From Gaiellales bacterium (GTDB lineage: Bacteria; Actinomycetota; Thermoleophilia; Gaiellales; JAICJC01): a stretch of DNA of 64,000 nucleotides. Position 1 is the first letter of the stretch; each line of letters opens with the position of its first letter. This document shows positions 27,449 to 28,667 of this stretch, in pieces. The DNA lies in NCBI GenBank assembly GCA_036273515.1, contig DASUHM010000044.1, positions 64,384 to 128,383 of the forward strand, in the 5' to 3' direction. Below the pieces are notes generated by a model. The model worked only from the letters and a program-made list of their open reading frames with translations. It made no database searches and was not told where the DNA came from. Both the position numbers and the translations under genes were made by a program.

Positions 27449-28504
27449 CTAGCAGTACCTCGTGTGCATCAGCTCCTTGACCCTGCGCAGCGTCTCCGCC
27501 GCGATCTCGTGCGCGCGGGCGTTGCCCTCCGCCAGCACGGCGCGGAGATAGTCGCGGTCGCCGGCGACCTGGGCGCGCCGGGCCCGGATGGGCGCCAGGC
27601 GCTCGTTGAGCGCGTCGGCCGCGACCCGCTTGAGCGCCGCGGCGCCGCCGTCGCCGACCTCCTCGGCGACCGCCTGCGGCGGCACGTCGCGGCAGATCGC
27701 CACCAGCCGGAGCAGGTTGGACACCTCGGGCCGCCGGTCGGGCTCGTAGGTGATCCGGCGCTCGGCGTCGGTCTTCGCCGCCCGGATGAGGCGCTCGGTC
27801 TCGTCGGCGGTCGCGCCCAGCGCGATCGCGTTTCCCCTGCTCTTGCCCATCTTCCGGCCGTCGAGGCCGAGCAGGAGCGGCGCCGTCCCCATCAGCGCCT
27901 CCGGCTCCGGGAAGTAGGGCGCCCCGGGCGCGTAGCGGTCGTTGAACCGGCGGGCGATCGTCCGTGCGAGCTCGACGTGCGGCAGCTGGTCGCGGCCCAC
28001 CGGCACGAGGTTGGCGTGGCAGAAGAGGATGTCGGCCGCCTGGTGCACCGGATAGGTGAACATGAGCGCCGACGTCGTGCCGCCGCCCGCCGCGATCTCG
28101 TCCTTCACGGTCGGGTTGCGGCGCAGCTCCGACACGCTGACGAGGCTCAGGAACGGGAGCACGAGCTGGTTCAGCTCGGCGACCTGGCTGTGGGTGAAGA
28201 TCACCGCCCGGCCGGGATCGATTCCGGCCCCCAGGTAGTCGGCGACCAGGCCCTCGACGTCGCCGGGCAGGTGGGCCGGCGAGTCGCGGTCGGTGATCGC
28301 CTGGTAGTCGGCGATCAGGACGAGCAGATCGACGCCCAGCCGCTGCAGCCGGACGCGGTTCTCGAGCGTGCCGAAGTAGTGGCCGACGTGGAGCGGCCCG
28401 GTCGGCCGGTCGCCCGTGAGGATGCGGAACGACGCCGGGTCGGCGAGCACGGCCCGCTCGAGGTCGGCGCTGCGGCGCTCGGCCGCGATGAGTGTCGATG
28501 ACAT
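27449..28504 (-). CDS. trpS: Tryptophanyl-tRNA synthetase
   Basis: 351 residues, the usual length. It charges tRNA-Trp. The class I signature is HVGH at residues 39-42 and the KMSKS loop reads KMGKSRGNA. Typical TrpRS elements are TGDRPTGPLHVGHYFGTL and the binding loop GRDQLPHVELAR. The ATG at 28504 has GAAGGAG upstream. A 150-base leader holds a short peptide gene with two Trp codons and three mutually exclusive stems, so expression is probably governed by ribosome-mediated attenuation. Confidence 0.95.
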   Translation of the reverse strand: MSSTLIAAERRSADLERAVLADPASFRILTGDRPTGPLHVGHYFGTLENRVRLQRLGVDLLVLIADYQAITDRDSPAHLPGDVEGLVADYLGAGIDPGRAVIFTHSQVAELNQLVLPFLSLVSVSELRRNPTVKDEIAAGGGTTSALMFTYPVHQAADILFCHANLVPVGRDQLPHVELARTIARRFNDRYAPGAPYFPEPEALMGTAPLLLGLDGRKMGKSRGNAIALGATADETERLIRAAKTDAERRITYEPDRRPEVSNLLRLVAICRDVPPQAVAEEVGDGGAAALKRVAADALNERLAPIRARRAQVAGDRDYLRAVLAEGNARAHEIAAETLRRVKELMHTRYC

Positions 28505-28566
28505 GGGAGATCTCCTTCGATCGGGCGAAGGGTCGCCTCCAAGCGGAACTCTCTCATGAGACACAT

Positions 28567-28588
28567 CGGGCCGCTCGAAGGCGGCCCG
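28567..28588 (-). terminator. Attenuator terminator stem (3:4) of the trpS leader
   Basis: On the minus strand CGGGCCGC (28588-28581) pairs with GCGGCCCG (28574-28567) around CTTCGA, a UUCG-type loop. It ends 63 nt before the trpS ATG. The following bases are not a strict T-run. Its left arm can alternatively pair with the right arm of the stem at 28606-28623. Confidence 0.65.
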
Positions 28589-28605
28589 TCGCATGCAGAA
28601 GCTAC

Positions 28606-28623
28606 GGCCGCCCTAGTGCGGCC
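28606..28623 (-). promoter_or_regulatory. Pause stem (1:2) of the trpS attenuator
   Basis: On the minus strand GGCCGC (28623-28618) pairs with GCGGCC (28611-28606). The left arm starts inside the second Trp codon of the leader peptide, so a ribosome stalled there would mask it and free the right arm to pair with 28586-28581, blocking the terminator. Confidence 0.65.
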
Positions 28624-28654
28624 ACGACCAGCGGGTGCGAGTTGCGCAGGTCAT
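28613..28654 (-). CDS. Trp-rich leader peptide of trpS
   Basis: A 13-codon frame, MTCATRTRWSWPH and stop, with Trp at codons 9 and 11. Its end overlaps the pause stem of the attenuator. A TACAGT -10 box lies 7 nt before the ATG, so translation would be leaderless. Ribosome-mediated attenuation through Trp codons is known for trp operons widely and for an auxiliary trpS in Streptomyces. This is the same logic read from sequence alone. Confidence 0.7.
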   Translation of the reverse strand: MTCATRTRWSWPH

Positions 28655-28661
28655 CGGGCTC

Positions 28662-28667
28662 ACTGTA
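28662..28667 (-). promoter_or_regulatory. -10 box for the trpS leader transcript
   Basis: TACAGT on the minus strand is 7 nt from the leader-peptide ATG. A second TANNNT box, TAGGCT at 28684-28689 on the plus strand, lies 8 nt before the divergent LLM gene, so the two promoters are back to back. Confidence 0.45.

Follow-up and report, generated by a model that had tools for sequence, protein, structure and literature searches.

A probable ribosome-mediated transcription attenuator with a Trp-Ser-Trp leader upstream of an auxiliary trpS gene in a Gaiellales bacterium

An auxiliary trpS gene behind a tryptophan leader

We analyzed a 64,000-nucleotide stretch of a Gaiellales bacterium contig (DASUHM010000044.1; hereafter the window), in which the gene for a tryptophanyl-tRNA synthetase (TrpRS) lies on the minus strand with a leader peptide open reading frame (ORF) directly upstream, the feature looked for in trpS attenuators. 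Re-reading the minus strand agreed base for base with every coordinate of a preliminary description made from the sequence, including a -10 box and a 13-codon leader with Trp at codons 9 and 11. In order of transcription, the features and their sources are as follows (window coordinates):

28662..28667, minus strand: -10 box TACAGT, 7 nt upstream of the leader ATG
28613..28654, minus strand: leader peptide ORF MTCATRTRWSWPH plus stop, 13 codons, probably leaderless (read from the sequence and relatives)
28622..28630, minus strand: control codons TGG TCG TGG (Trp-Ser-Trp; sequence and relatives)
28618..28625, minus strand: arm 1 (GTGGCCGC), overlapping the second Trp codon and pairing with arm 2 (alignment and folding)
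28604..28612, minus strand: arm 2 (GGCGGCCGT), directly 3' of the leader stop, pairing with arm 1 or arm 3 (alignment and folding)
28592..28596, minus strand: GCATG, candidate RNA-polymerase pause site, whose Y lies 13 nt downstream of the arm 2 GGCC
28580..28588, minus strand: arm 3 (CGGGCCGCC), forming the antiterminator with arm 2 or the terminator with arm 4 (alignment and folding)
28567..28574, minus strand: arm 4 (GCGGCCCG), the 3' strand of the terminator hairpin; ATGTGTC comes next (sequence and alignment)
28512..28517, minus strand: Shine-Dalgarno-like AAGGAG, 7 nt before the trpS ATG
27449..28504, minus strand: trpS, auxiliary (TrpRS-II-type) tryptophanyl-tRNA synthetase, 351 aa (TIGR00233, PF00579)

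The likely trpS start is the ATG at 28504, behind AAGGAG; the mechanically called ORF start at 28594 was rejected as unlikely, sitting between arms 2 and 3 and reading through the terminator. Because the neighboring genes on both sides (PhzF-like and luciferase-like monooxygenase) are on the other strand, trpS is probably monocistronic.

A canonical trpS is found on another contig of the same genome and is 35-36% identical to the window gene, whose product falls in a clade far from canonical copies in a tree with its relatives. The best sequence matches among solved structures were 1yi8 and 2a4m, the latter named TrpRS II. His43 of Bacillus stearothermophilus TrpRS has been implicated in indolmycin sensitivity, and resistance was reported for the Asn substitution at this position (PMC4899734). 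The residue aligned with His43 is His in the genome's canonical copy and Gln in the window enzyme, and a motif search found Gln at this position in essentially all of 80 relatives. Since the window enzyme carries Gln rather than His here, it is likely, judging from this one residue, to be a spare TrpRS that tolerates inhibitors, including indolmycin.

Leader anatomy and folding

The -10 box is separated from the leader ATG at 28654 by the 7 nt GAGCCCG. This spacing would place the transcription start at or adjoining the leader start codon, which implies a leaderless mRNA for the leader ORF. The two Trp codons occupy 28630-28628 (codon 9) and 28624-28622 (codon 11), and the core of arm 1 (GGCCGC, 28623-28618) overlaps the latter, so that arm 1 does begin in the second Trp codon as originally proposed. 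The remaining cores are GCGGCC (arm 2, 28611-28606), GGGCCGC (arm 3, 28587-28581) and GCGGCCC (arm 4, 28574-28568), all on the minus strand. Together, the arms allow mutually exclusive helices corresponding to a pause hairpin (1:2), an antiterminator (2:3) and a terminator (3:4), with computed energies of -12.2 kcal/mol for 1:2, -19.9 kcal/mol for 2:3 (arm 1 hidden, before arm 4 is made) and -18.2 kcal/mol for 3:4 alone.

Arm 4 is followed by GATGTGTC, with only three T in eight bases, and the window terminator therefore lacks a real U-run, as the preliminary description had noted; termination may consequently be weak or need another factor. Folded as a single sequence, the window leader reached -47.1 kcal/mol (z = -1.59), and 14 of 200 shuffles folded as well. 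We rejected this energy as proof of a device (a z of only -1.6 is unremarkable); the case is carried by comparative evidence.

Conservation across 70 loci

The nearest comparison is a congener (G002, apparently the same locus as L035) with a trpS of the same type at 88% identity and the leader MTSAHRTRWSWPH. Between the two, none of 39 positions changed in the WSWPH codons plus arms 2-4, and arm 1, which lies mostly inside WSWPH, was also unchanged; about 20% of positions differed nearby (13 of 62 just downstream and 5 of 24 in leader codons 1-8). The leader stop codon also differs (TAG in the window and TAA in the congener).

More broadly, 69 of the 80 relatives carry the same device, with -10 box, Trp leader and arms in the same order, giving 70 loci with the window (relatives that are not phylogenetically independent of one another). 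Leaders are 11-13 aa in all 70; two or three codons separate the last Trp from the stop, and the number of Trp is two in 57 cases, one in seven and three in six. Trp codons are thus kept at every attenuator-bearing locus, as an attenuator would require according to the preliminary description. The Trp-Ser-Trp arrangement is confined among the 70 to the Thermoleophilia pair of window and congener. Streptosporangiaceae relatives have TGG TGG TGG at the control codons; since their leaders read ...RTCWWWPH, the Trp-Ser-Trp form plausibly arose by a single G-to-C substitution that turned the middle TGG into TCG.

At 70 of 70 loci, an in-frame leader start (ATG or GTG) has TANNNT 6-7 nt upstream of it; the background rate for start codons in these loci is 0.9%. 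Where several in-frame starts were available the boxed one was chosen, which slightly favors the count. This spacing strengthens the earlier reading of the window leader as apparently leaderless and suggests that leaderlessness is a rule across the family.

Arm pairing was conserved to a similar extent. Helix 3:4 was paired in 98.5% and helix 2:3 in 97.7% of cells (38 distinct sequences), each with both-side changes in three pairs, which are the compensatory changes that the preliminary description proposed looking for. For neither helix did any of 500 shuffles reach the observed percentage paired or covariation score, and slid-register controls were all lower (24-61%). For helix 1:2 the paired share was 88.2% in one register, since in the Streptomyces group the partner of arm 1 is the 5' half of arm 2. 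A concerted change of three arms is seen in the window, where the A-U pair of the common type has become G-C in 2:3 as well as in 3:4. Taken with the Trp codons and the -10 spacing over the 70 loci, this covariation supports the trp-operon logic assigned to the locus at the outset.

The linker between arms 2 and 3 contains NCAYG at 51 of 70 loci (shuffles: mean 11, maximum 22), spaced more tightly to arm 2 than to arm 3 (variance 1.2 versus 2.7). In the window and in the linkers of loci L035-L114, GCAYG is conserved at an almost constant distance of 13 nt from arm 2. It is possibly an RNA-polymerase pause site of the hairpin-linked type known from the Escherichia coli trp leader, which this arrangement would fit.

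Alternatives acting through translation or ligand binding

Could the leader act mainly on translation or mRNA decay, with the position of the ribosome making a hairpin that covers the trpS ribosome-binding site more or less likely to fold? The missing U-run 3' of arm 4 would fit such a device, as would an inverted repeat in the window (CCTTCG...CGAAGG) that overlaps AAGGAG and is identical in the congener, and the strong hairpins over the ribosome-binding site in some basal relatives. However, arms 3 and 4 lie ~50 nt away from that site, terminator tails are T-rich in most relatives (at least four T in eight bases at 53 of 70 loci), and pairing of the ribosome-binding site is in only slight excess over shuffled sequence (0.59 versus 0.50; 40 of 60 loci). 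We rejected a systematic ribosome-binding-site hairpin across the family on this weak excess and regard control through translation or decay as unlikely. The hairpins of the basal relatives (L047, L044 and L037) are found just upstream of trpS, such as CCTCCTGAGGGC...AATCAGGAGG.

A T-box, or a different riboswitch that binds tRNA or Trp, would suit a regulated gene that encodes an aminoacyl-tRNA synthetase, but the leader ORF is conserved at the codon level, and we give this explanation almost no weight. An Rfam search of the window returned no match at the gathering score, T-box included, and a permissive local search gave only irrelevant sub-threshold matches.

Relatives without the attenuator

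The device is absent from 11 of the 80 relatives. The preliminary description had held that genomes keeping trpS while losing the Trp codons or the arm complementarity would speak against an attenuator. Only loci whose upstream region has been lost or replaced (L036, L041, L051 and L080, for example) and the two mixed cases below come near this condition. The four named loci form one supported group in the TrpRS tree and encode the same TrpRS type with no attenuator. In this group the start codon of trpS itself has a -10-like box 7-8 nt upstream, so the trpS mRNA may be leaderless and unattenuated.

Two further cases are mixed in that the terminator remains and the leader is replaced (L039) or cut by an insertion (L052). 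L039 and L044 are nearly identical in trpS and in the terminator, and L039 keeps the terminator and downstream part, with leader and promoter replaced by unrelated sequence; this could be recombination or a join in assembly of the metagenome-assembled genome. At L052, ~180-240 nt upstream of the trpS match, the leader is interrupted by the end of a transposase-like coding sequence and only arms 2-4 are kept, making the locus a natural leader knock-out.

Distribution across genomes

A scan of 84,980 species yielded the 80 TrpRS relatives, which apart from the congener are 61-70% identical to the window enzyme and come mostly from Actinomadura, Streptomyces and Streptosporangiaceae. More distant TrpRS of canonical type was also present in 27 of the 30 relatives' genomes examined. 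Within the order, this trpS type occurs in 2 of 129 genomes, those of the window and the congener. This scattered distribution points to either lateral gain or repeated loss, and the backbone of the TrpRS tree is too poorly resolved to choose between them. One genome, Streptomyces sp. CB01201, has two auxiliary-type TrpRS genes (L090 and L159) besides the canonical copy, with an attenuator before one and none before the other.

For genome searches we used a covariance model (R2) in which arms were aligned on the last Trp codon, replacing a poor model with automatic structure and nine pairs (R1). With the window in its training set, R2 matched the window genome once, at 59.5 bits, and the congener at 56.7 bits; across 399 genomes of the class it otherwise gave only matches of 33-37 bits, without a convincing Trp leader. 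Over 397 genomes from across the phylum, three loci matched at E ≤ 5e-5, namely the window, L154 and L155. L154 is an attenuator before an auxiliary trpS, with the leader MTSVPCRNWWRSS. L155 (G514:C25:7422-7492, minus strand) has a Trp leader (MLLITPAAQGWWPH), a -10 box close before the ATG and a strong terminator, and precedes a 58-aa ORF (MRRFRRPSPPAS...) rather than trpS.

Read one by one, the 33-37 bit matches in the class were dismissed as ordinary terminators or chance. They would favor a reading in which Trp codons occur by chance between a constitutive promoter and a weak terminator of the ordinary kind (or a processing hairpin), as would the commonness of GC-rich hairpins and the unexceptional single-sequence fold of the window leader. 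Nonetheless, chance would have to account for 70 loci that agree in their Trp codons, in how far these lie from the stop, in arm pairing and in -10 spacing, as well as for arms 2 and 4 following when arm 3 changes, and we consider it very improbable.

Proposed mechanism

We conclude that the locus is very probably a ribosome-mediated transcription attenuator controlling an auxiliary, probably inhibitor-tolerant TrpRS. Anatomy and conservation were read directly from the sequences, and the switching that we infer from them would run as follows. Transcription would begin at or adjoining the leader ATG, as the -10 spacing indicates, and a ribosome would load on the leaderless mRNA. Hairpin 1:2 would then form and polymerase would pause nearby, possibly at GCATG. 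With plentiful Trp-tRNA, the ribosome would reach the stop before arm 2 and cover that arm, leaving 3:4 to form and transcription to end. If starvation or inhibition of the housekeeping TrpRS left little charged Trp-tRNA, the ribosome would stall at Trp 9 or 11 with arm 1 covered; arm 2 would pair with arm 3, no terminator would form and trpS would be made.

The spacing of the window elements is compatible with these steps. The 3' edge of a ribosome lies ~11-12 nt past the A-site base, and positions taken from the sequence would put this edge at ~28613 with Trp 11 in the A-site, covering arm 1 and freeing arm 2. With Trp 9 in the A-site most of arm 1 would be covered, and on the stop codon the edge would fall near 28604, covering arm 2.

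We also offer, as a tentative extension less likely to hold than not in its entirety, that the leaderless Trp leader, 1:2 hairpin, fixed GCAYG pause, 2:3/3:4 switch and inhibitor-tolerant TrpRS II constitute one conserved and laterally spread unit, which might sense TrpRS inhibitors through a drop in Trp-tRNA charge in soil actinobacteria outside Streptomyces. Leaderless initiation and the pause motif would then be integral, so far unrecognized timing parts.

These results place a well-understood switch in soil actinobacteria of a class that has been little studied, where the spare synthetase may protect against natural TrpRS inhibitors. No Rfam family matches the window copy, and the 70-leader alignment provides a covariance model able to find inducible resistance-type synthetases. 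Two testable rules are suggested: that the leader peptides of this family are all leaderless, and that a pause-like motif keeps a constant distance to the first hairpin.

Comparison with known systems

In the E. coli trp operon attenuator, the stop codon is placed so that the terminating ribosome covers arm 2, and the window shares this switching logic, stop-codon placement included. Unlike the E. coli device, it controls a synthetase rather than biosynthesis, has a probably leaderless leader and ends in a weak terminator tail. The closest solved relative of the enzyme, by sequence alone, is 1yi8, the TrpRS II of Deinococcus radiodurans, with which it shares the GDRPTG motif.

The kind of attenuator is already known, in that Streptomyces has attenuators before trpS, and the preliminary description's statement to this effect agrees with the literature. 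A ribosome-mediated attenuator of an auxiliary, antibiotic-resistant trpS was reported in Streptomyces (Vecchione & Sello 2010, J Bacteriol 192:3565, cited in PMC4787780). That system appears to resemble the window locus in combining Trp-leader attenuation of an auxiliary trpS with a separate housekeeping TrpRS; the window locus differs in belonging to another class of Actinomycetota, in its Trp-Ser-Trp codons and in having no U-run.

Attenuators were found in Streptomyces and Corynebacterium by Seliverstov et al. 2005, who predicted a classical attenuator with Trp codons for S. avermitilis trpS2 and reported that the arms of trp attenuators in actinobacteria carry gGCC-rGCy-GGCC triples (PMC1262725). 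The window likewise has Trp codons before a trpS, in this case in a Thermoleophilia-type genome. In S. lividans TK24, trpS is preceded by TrpL2, a 13-aa leader with one Trp (MMTRTCTQLWRAA); the trpS and trpE leaders of S. lividans were mapped as leaderless by their 5' ends, and the trpS leader has hairpins but no U-rich stretch (PMC8079986). Leaderlessness and a missing U-run are therefore known for this kind of leader. The window leader is similarly 13 aa long, probably leaderless and without a U-run, but has two Trp instead of one; the TrpL2 leader pattern was absent from the ten related Streptomyces genomes searched. Compared with these systems, what appears to be new is a rare outpost in another class, the Trp-Ser-Trp control region, probable leaderlessness across the family and the candidate GCAYG pause motif.
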